From Candidatus Saccharimonadota bacterium (GTDB lineage Bacteria; Patescibacteriota; Saccharimonadia; Saccharimonadales; UBA4665), in assembly GCA_025927655.1 (NCBI GenBank), contig JAICKY010000009.1, forward strand, positions 1-32,317: a stretch of 32,317 nt of DNA, read 5' to 3'. Shown here one piece after another: positions 4,906 through 31,197 of the stretch. Below the pieces are notes generated by a model. The model was not told the DNA's origin. It worked only from the letters and a program-made list of their open reading frames with translations, and searched no databases. The stretch's first letter is position 1. Every line of letters starts with the position of its first letter. The translations under genes were made by a program, and so were the position numbers.

Positions 4906-4916
4906 TATAAAGTTAT
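4880..4916. repeat. 12-bp perfect inverted repeat (ATAACTTTATAA / TTATAAAGTTAT) across the -10/start of the fic gene; putative operator
   Basis: Arms 4880-4891 and 4905-4916 are exact reverse complements with a 13-bp spacer. Confidence 0.6.
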
Positions 4917-5829
4917 GAACTATCAAACGCAACTGAAATCAATTCTCCAAGCAAGTGGCTGGTCTCAAGAAGAGTTGGCGCGTCGTCTTGACGTATCCTT
5001 TGTCACGCTTAACACGTGGGTTAATGCTAAGTCGGAACCTCGTAAGAAAGCACAGGATTCCATCCAAGCGCTTTACTTTGATATTGTTGGTTTCGATAGT
5101 GTCGATCGAGAGGAACTGGACGGTCGGAAAAAGATTGCCGCTTCACTACACACTTCTGTCCGAGCAATTGCAGGCGACGAGCTGGCTCTTAATAAGCTAA
5201 TCCTTTATCTCACTTACCATACGAACACGATTGAGGGTAGTACGATGACCTTGGCTGACACGGAAGAAGTCCTCTTTAATAATCAAGTTCTTACAAATCG
5301 CACCCAGGTCGAACAGGCCGAAGCTCGTAACCACCAAGCCGCACTGCTATGGCTGCTCGGTGAGTTACGAAAGAAAGACTTTGTTTTAACGGAGGATACA
5401 ATCAAAGGTCTCCATCTGCGGCTTATGAATGGCATACTAAGCGACGCGGGGCAATACCGACGCCACAGTGTGCGAATTATGGGCACGCAGGTTGCAGTAG
5501 CCAACTACCTAAAAGTACCTAGCGCTATGAGCGAATTATTAAGCGTGACTATCAATGAGTACGGTGATATCGTTACACGTCTTGCAAGGGTGCACGCGGC
5601 CTTTGAGAAGATTCATCCATTCAGTGATGGTAACGGGCGTGTTGGTCGTTTGCTCATGCTTGCACAAGCGTTACGGTCTGGTATTGTCCCTCCTCTTGTA
5701 GTCAAAGAAAAAAGGCGTGCTTACTATAAATATTTAGAAATGGCTCAAACCAAAGAAGAATTTGGTCCGCTTGAGTTCTTCGTAGCAGAGTCAATCTACG
5801 CATCAAACCAGCTGCTATTTGATGCGTAG
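4915..5829 (+). CDS. Fic/DOC family protein with N-terminal HTH domain
   Basis: Fic motif HPFSDGNGRVGRLL; N-terminal HTH (GWSQEELARRLDVSFVTLNTWVN); putative inhibitory motif TNTIEG ([S/T]xxxE[G/N]). Confidence 0.9.
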   Translation: MNYQTQLKSILQASGWSQEELARRLDVSFVTLNTWVNAKSEPRKKAQDSIQALYFDIVGFDSVDREELDGRKKIAASLHTSVRAIAGDELALNKLILYLTYHTNTIEGSTMTLADTEEVLFNNQVLTNRTQVEQAEARNHQAALLWLLGELRKKDFVLTEDTIKGLHLRLMNGILSDAGQYRRHSVRIMGTQVAVANYLKVPSAMSELLSVTINEYGDIVTRLARVHAAFEKIHPFSDGNGRVGRLLMLAQALRSGIVPPLVVKEKRRAYYKYLEMAQTKEEFGPLEFFVAESIYASNQLLFDA

Positions 5830-7204
5830 GCCCCGTGTGATCGGCCGAGTTCACATGTTGGTGGCCACTTTTAAACAATGGTTGCGCCAAGTACTATCAC
5901 GAATTTCTCATACTACTGAGGACCGCGGTGATCCCGCCTTAAGCGATGAGCAGCTGGCCGTTTACATTACATTAGAAGACTCCCAAACACACGCTTTTGT
6001 TACGGGGAAAGCGGGTACTGGTAAGTCTGTTTTGCTGCGGTACTTTGCTGCACACACGAAAAAGATAGTAGTGAAGGTTGCGCCTACCGGTATTGCGGCG
6101 CTCAACGTTCAGGGGCAGACTGTCCATTCACTTTTCAGGCTACCAACTGGCTTCATAGATCCTAGAAATGTCAACGTATCTAGGGAAACTCAAGAAATTT
6201 TGCAGCATGTAGATACAATTATCATTGATGAGATTTCAATGGTTCGTGCCGATACGATAGACGCGATCGATCAGATACTGCGTATCGCCAAAGCTAGTGA
6301 GCTACCTTTCGGTGGCACACAGATTGTTGCGTTTGGTGATGTATACCAACTGCCACCCGTCGTAGTCGGCGCTCAGCTACAGAGTTACTTTCTGGCAAAG
6401 TATGGTGGTGCCTATTTCTTTAATGCACATGTATGGAAGAAGACAGCACTTACCATCTATGAGTTACAGACGGTTTTTAGGCAATCGGACGAAGATTTTA
6501 GGGATTTGCTGAACGCAATTAGGAACGGTTCACACACTAAAGGTATGTTAAGCGAGTTAGCCTTACGGGTGGTTTCGCCAACTAGTGTTCCGGCAGATAC
6601 GATCACGCTCACCAGCACTAATAAGGCGGCTGAAGAGATCAATCGAGCTCGCCTGGTAGTGCTGCGCGGTAAGATGCGTACCTATAGTGCAGTTATAACT
6701 GGTGAGATGCCAAACGGTTCTTTGCCCACTGATGAGAGCCTAAGCCTACGGATTGGTGCTCAGGTAATATTCATAAAAAACGACCCTGATGGAAAATGGG
6801 TCAATGGCACGACTGGTGTAATTAAGTCTCTGAAGAAGGACTGTATACGTGTGAAGTGCGGCAGCGTAGTGCACAATGTTGTACCTACTCTGTGGGAGCG
6901 GTCGAGTTACATATACGACGAGGAGCTGGATGGTATGCGGCAAGAAGTAACAGGAACCTTTACCCAGTTTCCTATAAAGCTTGCTTGGGCGATAACTATC
7001 CATAAGTCACAAGGTTGTACGTATGACAAGGTAGCGGTTGATCTTAGGCGCGGAGCATTTGCGCATGGTCAGGCATATGTGGCATTGAGTAGGTGTCGCT
7101 CGCGGGAAGGGCTCTACTTGCTCAGTAGCGTCAAACCACAAGATATAATAATTGATCCAGTTGTTACAAAGTTTATGGAACGGGTACAATTGATTTGCCG
7201 GTAA
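5822..7204 (+). CDS. Pif1/RecD-like SF1B helicase
   Basis: VTGKAGTGKSVLLRYF, PTGIAALNVQGQTVHSLF, IIIDEISMV, VAFGDVYQLPPV, AITIHKSQG, AYVALSRCR. Start overlaps the fic 3' end (TTG 5819 / ATG 5822). Confidence 0.88.
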   Translation: MRRPRVIGRVHMLVATFKQWLRQVLSRISHTTEDRGDPALSDEQLAVYITLEDSQTHAFVTGKAGTGKSVLLRYFAAHTKKIVVKVAPTGIAALNVQGQTVHSLFRLPTGFIDPRNVNVSRETQEILQHVDTIIIDEISMVRADTIDAIDQILRIAKASELPFGGTQIVAFGDVYQLPPVVVGAQLQSYFLAKYGGAYFFNAHVWKKTALTIYELQTVFRQSDEDFRDLLNAIRNGSHTKGMLSELALRVVSPTSVPADTITLTSTNKAAEEINRARLVVLRGKMRTYSAVITGEMPNGSLPTDESLSLRIGAQVIFIKNDPDGKWVNGTTGVIKSLKKDCIRVKCGSVVHNVVPTLWERSSYIYDEELDGMRQEVTGTFTQFPIKLAWAITIHKSQGCTYDKVAVDLRRGAFAHGQAYVALSRCRSREGLYLLSSVKPQDIIIDPVVTKFMERVQLICR

Positions 7205-7354: not shown

Positions 7355-8272
7355 CTATTGTTCTAGGTAGCCGTAGATAAGTTTAGATAGGTCGGCGAGC
7401 GGTTGTGTGCTGCTGCTATTGGTCATAATGACCAGTGTGTAGGTGCTTTTGGGGCCGTAGACTATGGCGGCATCGTTTTGGACGTTTTCGCCGTCCCCCT
7501 CGGCCACGGTTAGCCAGCCGGGTTTGTCGGCTACTGCGATGCCGCTGGGTACACCAGCTGGAACTCGTTCGCGCCAGACCTGATTTTTCATAAGCCCCAG
7601 CAGCAGTTGCGTGTCCGAGGCATTGAGTAGAGCGCCCTGCTGTAGTTTAGTAACCATGGTGGTAAGGTCGGCGGCAGTACTGTGTTTGTCGCCATTGGCC
7701 GGATTGCCAGAACTATCGTAGTTATTGATATCGGTGCGGGCGGCTCCCGCATTGGCGGCTAGCTGATCCACGCGGTCCCAGCCGACCAGGAACCCAAGCG
7801 CTTCGGCGCTATCATTATTGGATTGCAGAATCATTTTTTGCAGTGCGCTGCTAACGGTTTGACCAGTGCGGGTAACAGTATTCATAGAGTAGGTTCCCTG
7901 CTCTACTTCGTGCAGCGTGGCATAGGCGACGTAAATTTTGTAGGTGCTGGCGGTGACCATTTGCGCAGTACTGTTCCGGCTGGCGGTGCGAAAGCTACCG
8001 TTAGTTTCGGCAACTACGACCGATGAGCTGAACGAATGCTGCGCTGCCCAGGTATCGATGATCTGTTGTAACTGCATGTCGGTGTGCGGCGCGGTTGCAT
8101 GAGTGTCAGTCGAGCCGGGACTGCTATTCGCGGAGGCTGTTCGGGTGGCTTTTGCAACTTTGATATGGCTGGGCGTGTGGTGCACGTGCAGGTATCCAAA
8201 ACCAATAGCCACTACGAGCAGTGCAATACTAAGCGGTTTTATGTACGACCGGCTGCGGGGTTGCTTCCTCAT
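7355..8272 (-). CDS. Class A beta-lactamase-like serine hydrolase, exported
   Basis: STYK (SxxK), SNN (SxN), KPG in place of KTG; N-terminal hydrophobic signal/anchor. Start overlaps the stop of the upstream gene (ATGA). Confidence 0.8.
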   Translation of the reverse strand: MRKQPRSRSYIKPLSIALLVVAIGFGYLHVHHTPSHIKVAKATRTASANSSPGSTDTHATAPHTDMQLQQIIDTWAAQHSFSSSVVVAETNGSFRTASRNSTAQMVTASTYKIYVAYATLHEVEQGTYSMNTVTRTGQTVSSALQKMILQSNNDSAEALGFLVGWDRVDQLAANAGAARTDINNYDSSGNPANGDKHSTAADLTTMVTKLQQGALLNASDTQLLLGLMKNQVWRERVPAGVPSGIAVADKPGWLTVAEGDGENVQNDAAIVYGPKSTYTLVIMTNSSSTQPLADLSKLIYGYLEQ

Positions 8273-9000
8273 GATACTGGTTTGTACGTTGCTCCGCCCG
8301 ATACGTTAAAAAACTGCTCTAACGTGGGGATGTTTTCTTTGTGCAGTTCGGTACTTAGGCTGGTGCCGACATAGCGGAAATGCCATGCCTCGGCGCTATA
8401 GCCGGTGGCCGCGCTGTCTGCCTGCGTATATCGCAAAATAAAGCCATATTTCCAGGCGTTGGTTTGTGCCCACTTGCCTGCGGGCAATGTGCCAAAACAA
8501 TCTGCCACGTTGCAATTGCCGGAGCCGATGTCGACTGCCCAACCGGTTTGATGTTCGCTGTAACCTGGACGAGCGCTGACCGTGTCGGCATAGGTTTGGC
8601 CGTATGCTTTTACCAGGCTGCCGTAGGCTGCCACTTGGTCGCTGTACGAGCGATACCCGCTGTCGGCGACAAGTGTGTAGCCAGCGGTTTTTGCGTCTGC
8701 GAACATCTGCGACAAGGCTGCGGCAGCTTCGGCGCGCATGAGCTGGCTATTCCCTACCGATGTTAAGTCTGTTGGCGCATAGGTTTGCGGGTTGATAGGG
8801 TGCTGCTTGTTTACGATTGCCCAGAGACTGGCCGGGTCAGTAGTGGAGTATTTTGTTTTATCGAAAGAAGTCTGGTGGGTATTTGTTTTTGAAGACGATG
8901 GAGCCGGGGCATTAGTATGTTGCGCGTGTAGGGCAAGGCCAGCCGCCAGTGCTACTGTGACCAACCCTGTTATTAGCAACAATCGTGTACGCTGCATCAT
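8269..9000 (-). CDS. D-alanyl-D-alanine carboxypeptidase, VanY family
   Basis: SGYRSYSDQ, SEHQTGWAVDIG, EAWHFRYVG motifs; N-terminal signal. Consecutive GTG/ATG/ATG start candidates at 9003/9000/8997. Confidence 0.85.
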   Translation of the reverse strand: MMQRTRLLLITGLVTVALAAGLALHAQHTNAPAPSSSKTNTHQTSFDKTKYSTTDPASLWAIVNKQHPINPQTYAPTDLTSVGNSQLMRAEAAAALSQMFADAKTAGYTLVADSGYRSYSDQVAAYGSLVKAYGQTYADTVSARPGYSEHQTGWAVDIGSGNCNVADCFGTLPAGKWAQTNAWKYGFILRYTQADSAATGYSAEAWHFRYVGTSLSTELHKENIPTLEQFFNVSGGATYKPVS

Positions 9001-9073
9001 CACCTAGTATACCAGCCGGAGCGTTGTGAAATCCTGCAGAAGGCTTGCCTGCGGCTTGGCTATTGCCGTATGG

Positions 9074-21446: not shown

Positions 21447-22031
21447 TTAGCTGTTCGCGCTCTGAAGTACGAGCTTTTTATAATCTGCCGCACACAAGGC
21501 TTCGTATTCGATATTGTCTTGATCTTCGATAGCTATCTGGCTGCCTTCATTCACGAATACACCATTCAATTTACGGCCGTTTAAAACGGCTTTTTTGCCG
21601 CATCGGCACACGGTTCTTAGCTCTTGCAGCTCATGAGCCAGCTCTAGAAGCCGGGTGGAACCGGGAAATCCGTGAGTCTGGAAATCGGTACGCAGACCGT
21701 AGGCAATCACCGGTACATCTGCGTCTACCGCGAACCAAAAGAGTTCTTCGACCTGTTCTGGGGTCAAAAACTGAGCTTCGTCAACCAGCACACAACTAAC
21801 TTTTGGTTGAGCGGACAATAGCACATCTATAGAATCATCGGGGTGGACTAGCACATCCACCTTGCGTTCGATGCCAAGCCGCGAGATGACGGCATCTTCT
21901 CCTTTAGTGTCGACAGCTGGTTTTAGGACCAGTGCCTTCATACCGCGCTCTTCATAGTTATATGCGGTCTGGATAAGCGCTGTTGTTTTGCCGCTGTTCA
22001 TCACGCTATACCGGAAATATAGTTTTGCCAC
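21447..22031 (-). CDS. tdk: Thymidine kinase
   Basis: RYSVMNSGKTTALIQTAYNYEERG, VLVDEAQFLTPEQVEEL, VIAYGLRTDFQTHGFPGS; GTG start with aggagg RBS. Confidence 0.92.
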   Translation of the reverse strand: MAKLYFRYSVMNSGKTTALIQTAYNYEERGMKALVLKPAVDTKGEDAVISRLGIERKVDVLVHPDDSIDVLLSAQPKVSCVLVDEAQFLTPEQVEELFWFAVDADVPVIAYGLRTDFQTHGFPGSTRLLELAHELQELRTVCRCGKKAVLNGRKLNGVFVNEGSQIAIEDQDNIEYEALCAADYKKLVLQSANS

Positions 22032-25357: not shown

Positions 25358-27670
25358 TTATGTTTTGGACGGGGTCGGCTCAGTTGCCTTAGTCGTCTCT
25401 ACGAAAGACATAGCTTCGGCTAGTAACGGATGGACTTCGGTAATTTTGTCGTACATTTGCAGGGCGATCTTGCGGCAATCCTTGTCGCTCTCCGGTGCGG
25501 TATACAACTCCAACATTCGAAACGCTTCGCGTGCGTTTACCGTTACCTGCCAACGTACGTTGTGGCCGTGGAGGACGGCGTACTGAGCCAGCAGCGGGCC
25601 TTTGGCCGCTTGCAGGGCGCTGTACAGTTCCAGGCTTAAGTCAAAGCAGTGCTCGAATGATTCGGCTAGGCCCGCGTCTATCACTAGCTGCGGGACGTCG
25701 TAACCGAGCCGGGGGGTACATTCCTGTGATGATGGGTTGTCCACCATGTGATGGCGCTGTAACTCTTTGAATACCCCATATTTGGCTGTCAGGTCGAAGC
25801 TGTAGTGGATTTTTTCGAGCGGTCTTCCCGGCCGCTGGTATTTGCTGGGCCGGTCGCCCATGTATGCCGCGAAAACATCAAGCTTTTGCTGATATGACCA
25901 CTGGGAAACCTGCTGCAGGAGCGCTTCCAGTGGGAGATCGCTGTGGGGATAGAGCATGTCGGCTACGATATCGAGTTCGTTACGCGGCCAATATGCAGCT
26001 AATCCAACCGGCCCTGTAGCGGCTGTGTAGTTTGTTGGCAAAAGAGTATTCGCCAGATTTTTTACTGTTTCCCGGGTGGTTGTCCGGTATGTAAGGGCGG
26101 CTTTATTCTGGCCCGTTTCGGCGGTACCCTCCAGAAATACCGGAATAATTTTACGGGCTTCGATGAGAAGCGCTGCTCCAGCGGTCCGCAGTTCGGCTAG
26201 TTCGTCATTTTGCAGATGCAGGATAAGGTTTTCGAGCGCCTGTCCCGAAGCAAATATGCCGACCGTAGTTTTAGCTGCTAACGGCAACGCATCTTGCAAA
26301 ATGCTGCGCGCTTGGACGCTGGTGGCGCTTTGCCATGCAGCTCCCCGTCCCGATTTTGCCGCGGATGAATTTTTGCGAATGTATTCGGCCAGTGTGCCGA
26401 CCATACTGGCGTATGTGCCGAATATGTCATTCATGCTGCGGATGTACTGGCTCCGCACCTTGCCTGTAAGCTCGGCCGGTATGTAGAATTTGTAATTCCC
26501 GTTCGTATTTTTTTGGTCGAACTGGACATATGGGGCAGCCTGCTCTGTATATGATGCTAGCCGTCCCAATTCGAGACCCCTGGCCAGTAGCGCGCTGGCC
26601 CCTTCGGCAATAAAATGCCTGCCCGCCAATTGCTGCACAGCATCGTCACTGTAGGCATTGATTGTCTGGCTGAGTAGTTGCTGGTCGGTGGCCATCTTCT
26701 CTATTGAACCATCGAGTAGCATGGTGTGCATGTCGCTGTTGCTATGGCTGAGCCGGGCCATAGCGGCGGCGATAACAACCGGCGGCAAGGTGTTTGTGAA
26801 CCCATATATCGGGCTGTCGGCATTGGTGATGTACGTCGCTAGATCGGGCTTGGTAGTCTCCGCCGTACTTGTAGCTTTGCTTTCTGTCTCTTTGACTTCG
26901 GGATGGATAGCTGCCGGTGTTTCGGGCGCTGGTGCGTCAGCGGTAAGTACGGGCGGTTCTACAGCGGCCGCTTGTACGATTGGCTTGGTTGCCAGCACCT
27001 CGCCAACAGATTGGGGCTTTGACGCAGCGGTATCACCGGTGCGAAGCGCTAAGGTGCTGGTTACGTGCTGCCAGACGTGCTTAAACACGGTCTCGACGTC
27101 TTCATTGGCGTAGACTACGGGCAGGTTACGCTGCTTGGCTTCCCAGAGGTAGCCAGCACGGACTCGTTCCAGAAATGCCTCGTCCAGATTGTCAAAGCGT
27201 TCGGCATTAGAACGTACCCGGACGCGTTCTTTCAGGGTGCTGGCCGGCGCATCCAGGACAAGCATAAGATCTGGCTGCATATCACCAACGGCAAAATTTA
27301 TGATGTCGTTAATGGCGGTGTAGTCCGGCACGTCTCCCCGGCCGTAGTATTGAATGGCCAGCGTAGTAAGGTAGCTGCGGTCTACCAGGCAAATGACGCC
27401 GTTGGCCACCGCAGTACGGATAACCTCGAGTGATTGCGAGCGCGCAGCGTTGTACAGCAGTACCTCAGTGCGGGTACTCATGGGGTAGCGCGGGTCTTGG
27501 GTGAGTCTGCGAATCGCGCGGGCGGTCAGGTCGTTTTGACTGTCTGGCTCTCGCAGGATTTTTACCGGCAGCTGCGCGGCCTGAAGCTGGGCAGCAAGCA
27601 TTTGTACGATGGTGGTTTTGCCGACGCCCTCGGCCCCTTCGATGACGATATATTTACCCAAGACGCTCAT
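25358..27670 (-). CDS. Fusion protein: N-terminal thymidylate kinase plus two tandem ThyX-like domains
   Basis: Tmk: YIVIEGAEGVGKTTIVQML, DRSYLTTLAIQYYG. ThyX-like copy 1: GRHFIAEGASALLARGLELGRLASYTEQAAPYVQF. Copy 2: GVFKELQRHHMVDNPSSQECTPRLGY...WQVTVNAREAFRMLELYTAPESDKDCRKIALQMYDKI. Confidence 0.82.
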   Translation of the reverse strand: MSVLGKYIVIEGAEGVGKTTIVQMLAAQLQAAQLPVKILREPDSQNDLTARAIRRLTQDPRYPMSTRTEVLLYNAARSQSLEVIRTAVANGVICLVDRSYLTTLAIQYYGRGDVPDYTAINDIINFAVGDMQPDLMLVLDAPASTLKERVRVRSNAERFDNLDEAFLERVRAGYLWEAKQRNLPVVYANEDVETVFKHVWQHVTSTLALRTGDTAASKPQSVGEVLATKPIVQAAAVEPPVLTADAPAPETPAAIHPEVKETESKATSTAETTKPDLATYITNADSPIYGFTNTLPPVVIAAAMARLSHSNSDMHTMLLDGSIEKMATDQQLLSQTINAYSDDAVQQLAGRHFIAEGASALLARGLELGRLASYTEQAAPYVQFDQKNTNGNYKFYIPAELTGKVRSQYIRSMNDIFGTYASMVGTLAEYIRKNSSAAKSGRGAAWQSATSVQARSILQDALPLAAKTTVGIFASGQALENLILHLQNDELAELRTAGAALLIEARKIIPVFLEGTAETGQNKAALTYRTTTRETVKNLANTLLPTNYTAATGPVGLAAYWPRNELDIVADMLYPHSDLPLEALLQQVSQWSYQQKLDVFAAYMGDRPSKYQRPGRPLEKIHYSFDLTAKYGVFKELQRHHMVDNPSSQECTPRLGYDVPQLVIDAGLAESFEHCFDLSLELYSALQAAKGPLLAQYAVLHGHNVRWQVTVNAREAFRMLELYTAPESDKDCRKIALQMYDKITEVHPLLAEAMSFVETTKATEPTPSKT

Positions 27671-27825
27671 ACTACCTCACTTTCCCTGCTACGACAGACC
27701 AGATCACGCGTTCCGTAACCTTTTTGCTTGTCGCCATAGCTACTGCTATGCCTTCGCACAAGAAAAGTCGCGGCTCGCACGATCTGCCCCGTTTCACTTA
27801 CGGGAAATGAGCTACTATGAGCGTC
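27662..27825 (-). repeat. 164-nt imperfect palindrome between the dcd-like gene and tmk-thyX; would sequester the tmk-thyX RBS and start codon in mRNA
   Basis: Outer arms 27662-27686 and 27802-27825; middle arms 27700-27710 / 27776-27786; core CATAGC-TACT-GCTATG 27735-27750; all concentric. Confidence 0.8.
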
Positions 27826-28537
27826 ATTCATAGCTCATACCTTCGATTTTGCGCGGCATGCTGCGCTGATCTTTCCAGGCTTGCGGCAGCATCAGGCTTG
27901 GCGACCAGGTTTTGATAAGTGTTTCCAGATCGGTGCCGCTTTGGTATTTGTTGGCGGAGCGGCTGGATAGGTGCTTGCCATAGCTGCCATCGACTTCGCC
28001 GGTCTCATGGAACACTACCTGGGCGATTCGTTCGCCTATAGGTAACAGGACGGTCTCTCGCTCGTTTAAGTTATGGACGGTAAACGTGAGCCTGTTAATG
28101 TAACCGGGGTTAATCCAGCCGGCGTCAAGTGCAACGGCGACGCCATTACGCCCCCAGCTGCTGCGGCTTTTTACTTCACAGGCCCCTGGCGGTTTTATAC
28201 CGAAAAATTCGTGCGTATGCGCCAGGATGTGTTCGCCGGGTTTTAGGGCGATTACGGGGTGGTCATCGGGGATGCCGGCCAGCGGCTTGAATCCATTTAG
28301 GTTGCACCATTCCAGATGTGGCATGGCTTTGTATGGGCCGTCGAAATAGCGTTCCACGTCTTCGCGGTCAAAAGGGTTGTAGATAGTCCGTTCGTTGGCG
28401 AGCTCGATCCGGTAGTAATAATACCCGAGCGTGACATCCAGACTGGCATGGGCCACGTTTTCTGGATCAAACGGATGACAGACGATGTGATCGTCTGCTA
28501 TATACTGCCGGATTTGCGTGTTACTGAGTACGCTCAT
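27824..28537 (-). CDS. dCTP deaminase/dUTPase (Dcd) family protein
   Basis: MSVLSNTQIRQYI, ASLDVTLG, SRSSWGRNGVAVALDAGWINPGYINRLTFTVHN, IGERIAQVVF. Confidence 0.85.
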   Translation of the reverse strand: MSVLSNTQIRQYIADDHIVCHPFDPENVAHASLDVTLGYYYYRIELANERTIYNPFDREDVERYFDGPYKAMPHLEWCNLNGFKPLAGIPDDHPVIALKPGEHILAHTHEFFGIKPPGACEVKSRSSWGRNGVAVALDAGWINPGYINRLTFTVHNLNERETVLLPIGERIAQVVFHETGEVDGSYGKHLSSRSANKYQSGTDLETLIKTWSPSLMLPQAWKDQRSMPRKIEGMSYE

Positions 28538-28658: not shown

Positions 28659-29162
28659 CTACGCGGCTGCGAATTGCTTGCCTACGATGTTGCCTGGTGC
28701 ATCTTTGTTAAAGAGGACCTCGCTATCCTCTAGCAGATATACATGCTGGATACCGGCCGCCAACATAGCGTTCCAACATGGCTCGCAGCACCACCAGTGC
28801 CCCCACATATAAAGTTCGCCTCCTGCAATGTCGGTATTGTGGTCACTAGCATTTTGAATGGTGCGTGCTTCGCAATGGTTTTTAGGGCCACAGCCTTCGC
28901 AGAGGTCATAGTCTTGACCTGTCGGACTGCCGAGGCGAACGCGCTCACAGCCATGTGCCATATGATATGGGCTGAGTCGTACTCCGCGCGCAATAACTTT
29001 TCCGTCTTTAACGATGACACCGCCGATCGGTTGCGCACCGTCGTTAGATTCCTTACAAGCAATTTCTTTGGCCGCCTGCATGAACTCGTTATCCGCGGGC
29101 ACATAGTCAATAGTACCCGCCGCAGGCATATACGGATAGTTGATGTGTTTTTTGCTATTCAC
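28659..29162 (-). CDS. dCMP/cytidine deaminase family zinc enzyme
   Basis: GGVIVKDGKVIARG, HCEARTIQNA (HxE), CEPCWNAMLAAGIQHVY (CxxC); GTG start. Confidence 0.82.
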   Translation of the reverse strand: MNSKKHINYPYMPAAGTIDYVPADNEFMQAAKEIACKESNDGAQPIGGVIVKDGKVIARGVRLSPYHMAHGCERVRLGSPTGQDYDLCEGCGPKNHCEARTIQNASDHNTDIAGGELYMWGHWWCCEPCWNAMLAAGIQHVYLLEDSEVLFNKDAPGNIVGKQFAAA

Positions 29163-29222: not shown

Positions 29223-30059
29223 ATGGCGACGTTTGACGGGATATATCAGAAGCTGCTTACAGATATTATGCAGCACGGCGTGCGCGAAGTTAACCAGCGC
29301 ACTGGGCACGAGACGGCGGGTTTGCCCGGCGTGAGTTTTTCAGTGGATGTCGAGAAGGATGGCTTCCCACTGCTCTCGCTGCGTAAAATTCCCACCAAAA
29401 TCTTTATTGCGGAGCAGATCTGGTTTATTTCCGGCGCCCGTAAACCGGAAGTGTTCTTACGTAACTTTACGAAAATTTGGGATGATTTCACGAACCCCGG
29501 CGATGTCGTAACGGTAGCATACGGCTACCGCTGGCGGCGGCATTTTGGGCGTGACCAGCTGGGTATGCTGGTAGAATTACTGCAAAAGGACCCGTCTTCG
29601 CGGCAGGGGGTGGTAGTTACGTGGGACCCGTCCAGCGATGGCTTAGGCGGGGCCAGCAAGGCCAATGTGCCCTGCCCGTATACCTTTACGGTCAATATTA
29701 TGGGCGGCCGGCTCAACATGATGAATGTCGTGCGTTCCAATGATGTGATTTTAGGCCTGCCGCACGATGTTGCGGGATTTTGCCTGCTACAGCTGGTACT
29801 CGCGCAGAAGTTAGGGGTAAAACCTGGCATCTACACCCACACCATTGCCAATGCTCATGTGTATGATATCCACTATGATGCTGCCAACGAGATGATTGGC
29901 CGCGCTGCCGACGCGCCGAAAGTCACGCTGCAATTGCCGGACGACACCTATGGCCGTGCCGAGGCTAAAGATGTGAGCCTGGTAGACGACATCGACACGC
30001 CGCTGCAAGCGCAGTACAAGCCCGGCGAAGCCATAAAAGGCCTAAGGATCGTACTGTAA
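29223..30059 (+). CDS. Thymidylate synthase (ThyA) superfamily protein; active-site Asn replaced by Asp, possible dCMP methylase/hydroxymethylase-like enzyme
   Basis: RTGHETAGLPG, DGFPLLSLRKI, AEQIWFISG, VPCPYTF (Cys), RSNDVILGLPHDVAGFCLL, IANAHVYDIHYD. Confidence 0.88.
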   Translation: MATFDGIYQKLLTDIMQHGVREVNQRTGHETAGLPGVSFSVDVEKDGFPLLSLRKIPTKIFIAEQIWFISGARKPEVFLRNFTKIWDDFTNPGDVVTVAYGYRWRRHFGRDQLGMLVELLQKDPSSRQGVVVTWDPSSDGLGGASKANVPCPYTFTVNIMGGRLNMMNVVRSNDVILGLPHDVAGFCLLQLVLAQKLGVKPGIYTHTIANAHVYDIHYDAANEMIGRAADAPKVTLQLPDDTYGRAEAKDVSLVDDIDTPLQAQYKPGEAIKGLRIVL

Positions 30060-30553
30060 TGAGAACGTTTATTATTGCCGCGATCTCTGCCGATGGTTTC
30101 ATTGCGCGCAGCAGCGATGAACTGGCAGACTGGACCAGCAAAGAGGACAAGAAACTGTTCGTAGAGCTTACCAAGCGGGCTGGCGTGATGGTTATGGGAA
30201 ATACTACGTTTAAAACTATCGGCCGCGCACTGCCTGATCGCCAAACCATCGTGTATAGCCGCCAAGACTTGCCGTATGACGATGTAGAGGTAACCAGTGA
30301 AGACCCGGTTGATTTAGTTGCACGACTAAATAAAGCCGGGCAAGCAGAGCTGGCTATTTGCGGCGGCAGTACCATATATAGCTTGTTTATGCAGGCTGGT
30401 GTGGTGGACGAACTGTACTTAACCGTAGAGCCGTGTCTGCTCGGCGGCGGTGTACCCCTGTTCGACGCTGCACTTGATGCCAAACTGAAACTGCTGGAAA
30501 CGCGGCAGCTCAATGAAAACGTACTATTATTACATTACGAGGTTCAAAAATAA
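30059..30553 (+). CDS. Dihydrofolate reductase family protein
   Basis: IIAAISADGFIARSS, VMVMGNTTFKTIGRALPDRQTIVYSR, ICGGSTIYSLFM; TAATG overlap with the upstream gene. Confidence 0.85.
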   Translation: MRTFIIAAISADGFIARSSDELADWTSKEDKKLFVELTKRAGVMVMGNTTFKTIGRALPDRQTIVYSRQDLPYDDVEVTSEDPVDLVARLNKAGQAELAICGGSTIYSLFMQAGVVDELYLTVEPCLLGGGVPLFDAALDAKLKLLETRQLNENVLLLHYEVQK

Positions 30554-31197
30554 TGTCAGTACTCACCCGTCAGGAAATTTTAGAACATGTAGCTACCGGG
30601 AAAGTAGCGTTTAATCCGGCGCTGGACGTATTTCAGTTGCAGGCACATTCAGTAGATTTACGGTTAGGGTTCACCTTTTTGGTGCCCAAATCATGGCACA
30701 TGACTAAAAAGGGCCGTGAAGCATTGCACATGGATTATTTTGCCGAAGACCGGCCGGAATATTTTGACATTGTGGAACTAGAACAGGGGCAGTTTTTTGA
30801 TCTGCTCCCCGGCGAGCATATTCTGGTGTCGTCGCTGGAATCTATCAAGATTCCCGAGGATTTGATGGCCGTTATGTACCCGCGCAGCAGCACGAACCGT
30901 AAAGGCATATCGGTAGACCTCACGGGGATTATCGATAGCGGCTACGAAGGCCAGTTAGTTATTCCAGTGCGCAATAACACGCAGTCTCAGACCGTGCGGT
31001 TGTATCCTGGTGAGCGTTTTTGCCAGGTTGTGTTCCAAAAACTAAGCCACAACGTAGACGCGCGTAAAAGCCGCTATCACCAGCGCGATATCATTGATGG
31101 CGTCGATGTCGATAGCTTGGAATCGGAGCGTAACACAGAGATCGAACTGATTCGATCTGGTGATATGAAAAAACTCAAGAACGACCACGCGGCGTAA
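30553..31197 (+). CDS. dCTP deaminase/dUTPase family protein (second paralogue)
   Basis: MSVLTRQEILEHV, HSVDLRLG, YPRSSTNRKGISVDLTGIIDSGYEGQLVIPVRNN, PGERFCQVVF; overlaps the DHFR stop. Confidence 0.86.
   Translation: MSVLTRQEILEHVATGKVAFNPALDVFQLQAHSVDLRLGFTFLVPKSWHMTKKGREALHMDYFAEDRPEYFDIVELEQGQFFDLLPGEHILVSSLESIKIPEDLMAVMYPRSSTNRKGISVDLTGIIDSGYEGQLVIPVRNNTQSQTVRLYPGERFCQVVFQKLSHNVDARKSRYHQRDIIDGVDVDSLESERNTEIELIRSGDMKKLKNDHAA

Follow-up and report, generated by a model that had tools for sequence, protein, structure and literature searches.

A ThyA-family protein with aspartate at the pyrimidine-selecting position as a putative dCMP 5-methylase of Patescibacteria

INTRODUCTION

Which pyrimidine is methylated by a thymidylate synthase (TS) homologue that has lost the Asn by which such enzymes select their substrate? 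The question is raised by a 32,317-nucleotide stretch of a Candidatus Saccharimonadota genome (hereafter, the window), which encodes a ThyA-family protein, TS-D, with Asp at this position. Thymidylate is needed by DNA-based cells. To our knowledge, there are no de novo thymidylate enzymes other than ThyA and ThyX, both of which act on dUMP. In vitro, TS became a dCMP methylase upon an Asn-to-Asp change at this position (Liu & Santi 1992; Hardy & Nalivaika 1992, cited from PMC8670742), and in the Escherichia coli and Lactobacillus casei enzymes the change favors dCMP (PMC8670742). In the MetaGPA study of phage contigs that had been selected for modified cytosine, positions 177 and 147 were the two with the strongest link to modification (PMC8670742), and the Pamexvirus Xp12 carries 5-methylcytosine (5mC) in place of all cytosines in its DNA (PMC9206674).

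Here, we show the residues and the fold of TS-D, a conserved gene cluster around it, and an almost complete lack of further thymidylate synthases among the genomes that encode it. We infer, with a balance of evidence that leans only modestly this way, that TS-D is a folate-dependent dCMP 5-methylase in a route that leads from dCMP via 5-methyl-dCMP to dTMP; the substrate, the product, the activity, the order of the steps, and the reaction of the Dcd-like partner DCD2 are all inferred from sequence.

RESULTS

TS-D combines a TS fold with an altered pyrimidine site

Translation and profile search identified TS-D as a 278-amino acid ThyA-family protein (173.9 bits for PF00303, against a curated cutoff of 24.3; Table 1), the only PF00303 gene in the 871-kb genome of the window (G000). 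A sequence-only reading of the locus had claimed that residue 182 is an Asp in the E. coli N177 column, and that the catalytic Cys (VPCPYTF), the HxY motif, and the RTG phosphate loop are kept, so that the protein would be active and cytosine-directed. We aligned TS-D by MAFFT with E. coli ThyA and T4 gp42, whose sequences were taken from their genomes; Asp182 (codon GAT) indeed fell into the columns of E. coli Asn177 and T4 Asp179. The protein contains RSNDVILGLPHDVA and VPCPYTF, and it keeps Cys151, Glu64, Tyr100, Arg127, Arg171-Ser172, Asp174, His212, and Tyr214, which correspond to the E. coli catalytic Cys, Glu58, Tyr94, Arg126, Arg166-Ser167, Asp169, His207, and Tyr209. The claims on the Cys and on HxY (His212 and Tyr214) thus held as well. 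The Arg equivalent to E. coli R126 is kept, and the column of E. coli R127 is Gln. Cytosine direction was supported by every sequence-level test, with the activity itself inferred from sequence alone.

The exchange at position 177 is one of several. Directly after the catalytic Cys, in the place of the His147 of TS, stands a Pro; relative to ThyA we further observed Leu143 to Asn, Gln165 to Val, Phe176 to His, Trp83 to Phe, and Arg127 to Gln. Accordingly, the Asn177 and His147 of dUMP-specific TS were not found in the aligned TS-D, which has Asp and Pro instead, and the combination expected for an Xp12-type dCMP methylase, Asp177 with a residue other than His at 147, is present. TS-D also has a TS-like C-terminal tail. 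Its AlphaFold model (pLDDT 86) adopts the TS fold, with TS structures as the top Foldseek matches (TM 0.8), and its matches in the Protein Data Bank include 1njc, the complex of L. casei N229D with dCMP.

Table 1. Features of the window that bear on TS-D, with positions counted from its first nucleotide.
Feature	Position	Strand	Evidence or note
TS-D, proposed dCMP 5-methylase	29223..30059	+	PF00303 4.9e-51; alignment; AlphaFold TS fold
Asp182 codon, GAT	29766..29768	+	E. coli N177 / T4 D179 column
Dihydrofolate reductase (DHFR/RibD_C fold)	30059..30553	+	PF00186 4.4e-16; PF01872 2.5e-18
DCD2, dCTP-deaminase/dUTPase fold, deaminase Glu138 to Pro	30553..31197	+	PF22769 3.8e-34
Zn-dependent cytidylate-type deaminase (P0002; HxE, CxxC), divergent from TS-D	28659..29162	-	PF00383 8.9e-11
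DCD1, second Dcd-like paralogue, Glu138 to Thr	27824..28537	-	PF22769 8.2e-32
Thymidylate kinase fused to two ThyX-like domains	25358..27670	-	PF02223 1.7e-26; PF02511 1.6e-27
Thymidine kinase (dTMP salvage in G000)	21447..22031	-	PF00265 7.5e-36

TS-D lies in a conserved chromosomal cluster

TS-D, DHFR, and DCD2 form one operon with two TAATG overlaps, one between TS-D and DHFR, as the sequence-only reading had claimed, and a second that joins DHFR to DCD2. Beyond TS-D follow the divergent deaminase, DCD1, and the fusion of thymidylate kinase with ThyX-like domains, and in G+C the genes of the cluster resemble the window's housekeeping genes. Within the class, the nearest homologues are those of G334 (74%) and G135 (70%), which belong to two further families; both share the arrangement of the window, with the deaminase facing TS-D-DHFR-DCD2, followed by tmk, rplJ, rplL, dnaX, and dnaB. 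DCD1, which also lacks the Asp of the IDxGY motif (Asn instead), was not found as a separate gene in these two syntenic relatives.

We made some further observations on the surroundings. The ThyX signature (RHRxxSxNExSxRY) is degenerate in both of the tandem ThyX-like domains; open reading frames of 750 to 830 amino acids resembling this fusion are common in the family of the window's genome, and many genomes of that family have no ThyA match. Elsewhere in the window, at 4915-5829 (+), 5819-7204 (+), and 7355-9003 (-), a Fic protein with an HTH overlaps a PIF1-like helicase, and a class-A-beta-lactamase-like hydrolase adjoins a VanY-type carboxypeptidase.

Aspartate is invariant across a deep cellular clade

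With an alignment as the query, 84,980 species genomes yielded 150 relatives, of which we analyzed the best 80. These came mostly from Parcubacteria-type lineages (Kaiser-, Taylor-, Nomura-, Doudna-, Uhr-, Harrison-, Dojka-, and Woesebacteria, among others), and all 80 carried Asp177 and Asn143, with Pro147 in 78. One of the two search patterns contained Asp177, a bias that we checked by a whole-protein search of 381 Patescibacteria genomes. This yielded 15 high-scoring TS-D genes, the window's own included; the other 14 all had Asp177, whereas each of 20 ordinary synthases drawn from the same sample had Asn177 and His147. The N177 column is thus Asp across the clade, and this invariance in both sets, as against Asn in the ordinary enzymes, excludes a chance origin of Asp182.

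In a tree built with a quick method without bootstrap, the cellular TS-D sequences (SH-aLRT 89) and the Asp-type enzymes of phages (93) each formed a clade of their own, separate from the Asn-type synthases and with neither nested in the other; the sequence of Xp12 itself was not part of this comparison. Three TS-D genes (L178, L207, and L224) sat on contigs labeled Saprospiraceae, Ktedonobacterales, and Chloroflexi, possibly through binning errors. Separately, we noted a clade of ordinary Asn177 synthases in the window's class (L008, L016-L025, and others) in which Lys126 and Ala or Gly127 replace two phosphate-binding arginines.

TS-D takes the place of other thymidylate synthases

Exactly one ThyA-family gene was present in 61 of 62 distinct TS-D genomes (67 handles minus 5 duplicates), and 60 of the 62 had no ThyX. 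The two with ThyX-like domains were the window's own genome and G334, so TS-D is not the sole synthase in either. Among the 381 Patescibacteria genomes, no co-occurrence of Asp-type and Asn-type enzymes was found in the 15 with TS-D, where ~7.4 would be expected (P ~3e-5). In G135, which is 99% complete, another ThyA, a ThyX, and a PF00265 thymidine kinase were all not found, and the PF00265 thymidine kinase was absent from G334, too. As this near-total absence of other synthases shows, TS-D behaves as their replacement and is a Patescibacteria-wide, usually sole enzyme of its family. The sequence-only reading had missed this distribution, as well as the linkage to a deaminase and the Dcd-like partner without its catalytic Glu (see below). 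In the Woesebacteria genome G771 (L199), a second ThyA-like gene that scored below threshold (C28:2264-2647) lies ~2 kb from TS-D.

Some reservations apply. Most of the genomes surveyed were incomplete metagenome-assembled genomes (MAGs). At least 17 of 393 genomes of the class had neither ThyA nor ThyX; import of dTMP is therefore possible, and the sole presence of TS-D is no proof that it supplies dTMP. Because the window's genome encodes both the ThyX-like fusion and a thymidine kinase, the TS-D route is probably one of several there, perhaps a redundant one.

A divergent deaminase and a Dcd-like protein without its catalytic Glu accompany TS-D

The deaminase was found in 70 of the 80 analyzed loci (immediately divergent in 58), DCD2 in 62, and a DHFR match in 49. 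In the phylum sample, a P0002-type deaminase lay near TS-D in 9 of 14 loci versus 0 of 20 near Asn-type synthases, and within the class it occurred in all three TS-D genomes versus 2 of 390 others. Genomes of the G606 type, which lack a nearby deaminase, were considered as counterexamples to the pathway; this was dropped when a reading of ~860 kb of G606 located the deaminase elsewhere, overlapping DCD2. Two genomes that have no ThyA-family match, G061 and G374, also carry a P0002-type deaminase. The one of G061 adjoins a tandem ThyX-like gene (C21:48507-50484), which suggests that this deaminase type may act on dCMP itself and may serve a dUMP route.

The model of the deaminase was closest to T4 dCMP deaminase (1vq2, Foldseek). 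In its HxE and CxxC zinc motif and its fold, it meets the criteria of the dCMP deaminase family and resembles T4 Cd, human DCTD, and the S-TIM5 enzyme, yet it differs from that family by a GHWWCxxC motif, a Cys-rich insertion, and the lack of an aromatic residue in the allosteric G(Y/W)N(A/G) motif. dCMP deaminases of the DCTD type can use 5-methyl-dCMP as a substrate (PMC12088426).

Glu138 was replaced by Pro in the DCD2 of every TS-D locus examined, whereas the Dcd proteins near Asn-type synthases kept Glu (5/5). Given this loss of the catalytic residue, we rejected DCD2 as a source of dUMP by dCTP deamination. A separate dUTPase-like gene is present in G135 and G606, from which we infer that DCD2 may act on dCTP or 5-methyl-dCTP. 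The Glu138 loss and the deaminase linkage together suggest that TS-D lineages no longer deaminate dCTP at this locus but depend on a deaminase that works at the monophosphate level.

The closest noncellular relatives are phage enzymes

Viral relatives of TS-D emerged with the alignment query but not when viral contigs were scanned with a single sequence. The best phage matches were enzymes of Pamexvirus, Bradleyvirinae, and roseophage-like phages, and the residue signature of Asp177, Pro147, and Asn143 without Gln165 is common to TS-D and the Xp12-type, Pamexvirus, and Bradleyvirinae (PaMx28, AXL1), RcRudolph, and Tedan enzymes. The usual setting of the phage Asp-type genes is a cassette that also encodes a MazG-type pyrophosphohydrolase, a dCMP deaminase, and DHFR; the genes of PaMx28, AXL1, RcRudolph, and Tedan, 35 to 42% identical to TS-D, share with it the dCMP deaminase neighbor and usually the DHFR. 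TS-D, in contrast, is chromosomal, forms a clade of its own, and has a Dcd-like partner where the phage-borne type usually has the MazG-type enzyme. The neighboring deaminase, too, is of another type (20 to 26% identity to those of the phages), and the full 5mC of Xp12 DNA sets that phage apart from the chromosomal TS-D. In Rhodobacter phage RcRudolph, the gene at 7965-8855 (L035) is annotated as a ThyX-like thymidylate synthase and is actually a ThyA-family Asp177 enzyme.

Canonical ThyA (E. coli, L. casei) shares with TS-D the fold, the catalytic Cys, the Glu, Arg-Ser, His, and Tyr, the C-terminal tail, and the coupling to DHFR, but is only ~29% identical, with Asn177 to Asp and the exchanges at positions 147, 143, 165, 83, and 127 among the differences. 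T4 gp42 (~25% identity) has the Asp at the pyrimidine-selecting position in common with TS-D and differs in Ser94, Asp145, Val85, and the lack of a tail, where TS-D has Val98, Asn148, Phe, and a tail. The CMP hydroxymethylases MilA and BcmA carry Asp at the same position (PMC5175136), yet they have Ala for the ribose-selecting Ser, which TS-D keeps (Ser172, in RSND), as expected for a deoxyribose substrate; TS-D thus lacks the substitution that marks the MilA type. The engineered N229D and N177D dCMP methylases (1njc) share the single switch residue with TS-D, but these are laboratory mutants, whereas TS-D adds several co-adapted changes and a natural deaminase partner.

DISCUSSION

A putative route from dCMP to dTMP

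We regard TS-D as a cellular branch of the dCMP-methylase kind, an activity that is inferred from sequence. In the proposed mechanism, Cys151 would attack C6 of dCMP, Asp182 would recognize and protonate the cytosine (N3/N4), and methylene-tetrahydrofolate would give both the carbon and the hydride, yielding 5-methyl-dCMP and dihydrofolate, the latter to be recycled by the adjacent DHFR. The divergent zinc deaminase would convert 5-methyl-dCMP to dTMP in one step, and thymidylate kinase would phosphorylate this dTMP. DCD2, without the deaminase Glu, would be a pyrimidine dNTP diphosphatase that trims dCTP and/or dUTP to the monophosphates. The methyl group would thus be added before the amino group is lost, which inverts the textbook order. 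This inverted order rests on the Asp rule, the co-adapted residues, and the phage link to 5mC. Sequence alone cannot fix it, since a TS-D that used dUMP would need the same partners. If TS-D acts on dCMP, cells of the G135 type have yet to convert its product into dTMP, a step for which the linked deaminase would suffice.

Alternative explanations

The most serious alternative, which remains possible, is that TS-D is an ordinary dUMP-dependent TS that tolerates Asp, with the deaminase and the Dcd-like protein feeding dUMP along the textbook route. This reading agrees with TS-D as the sole synthase of 60 out of 62 genomes and also with its partners, for a dCMP-type deaminase, a dUTPase-like DCD2, DHFR, and Tmk are those of the classic route. 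Against it, the Asp is invariant over a deep clade and never reverts to Asn, it is joined by Pro147 and Asn143 in the signature of the 5mC-type phages, the same change favors dCMP in the E. coli and L. casei enzymes (PMC8670742), and the separate, true-looking dUTPase of G135 and G606 implies that DCD2 is not simply their dUTPase. A different use of the same product, in which 5-methyl-dCMP would become 5-methyl-dCTP for an Xp12-like, globally 5mC-containing chromosome while dTMP came from salvage, import, or ThyX, appears unlikely. It can point to the 5mC-type phages as the nearest noncellular relatives of TS-D (PMC9206674) and to the ThyX-like domains and thymidine kinase of the window's genome as sources of dTMP. 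However, G135 lacks ThyX, another ThyA, and the thymidine kinase, the strict replacement of Asn-type synthases suggests a supply of dTMP, and the nucleotide meant for DNA would be broken down by the linked deaminase.

We consider it very unlikely that TS-D is a dCMP hydroxymethylase like T4 gp42, although it has Asp at the T4 Asp179 column and a polar Asn, unlike the Leu of TS, at that of T4 Asp145. The T4 enzyme needs Ser94 and Asp145 to place a water molecule (PMC6400193), and these are Val98 and Asn148 in TS-D; in addition, the C-terminal tail of TS is kept, DHFR is translationally coupled, and identity to gp42 is low. The sequence-only reading had preferred a methylase on the basis of the DHFR coupling, and this preference is supported, now also by Val98/Asn148 and the tail. 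That the gene is a phage remnant or belongs to a misbinned contig is all but excluded. The enzyme type is known from phages and some MAG bins are doubtful (those of L178, L207, and L224), but synteny with rplJ, rplL, dnaX, and dnaB extends over three genomes of three families that were assembled independently, the cellular and phage clades are distinct, and the cluster has the G+C of its chromosomal surroundings in the window.

Implications

In the open-access literature that we searched, we saw no description of such an enzyme from Patescibacteria; subscription papers were outside the search. A bolder reading, that a large part of the Patescibacteria/CPR has a third de novo route to dTMP in which dUMP is bypassed, is likewise inferred, without activity data, and we see it as no more probable than its opposite. 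A route to dTMP that methylates and then deaminates would be new. If the dCMP-methylase reading is true, dTMP synthesis would follow another order and pass through another intermediate, which also serves as the precursor of DNA 5-methylcytosine, and an enzyme type known from phages would have a cellular home. Metabolic models would change accordingly for a major bacterial radiation whose copies of the gene are likely annotated simply as thymidylate synthase.
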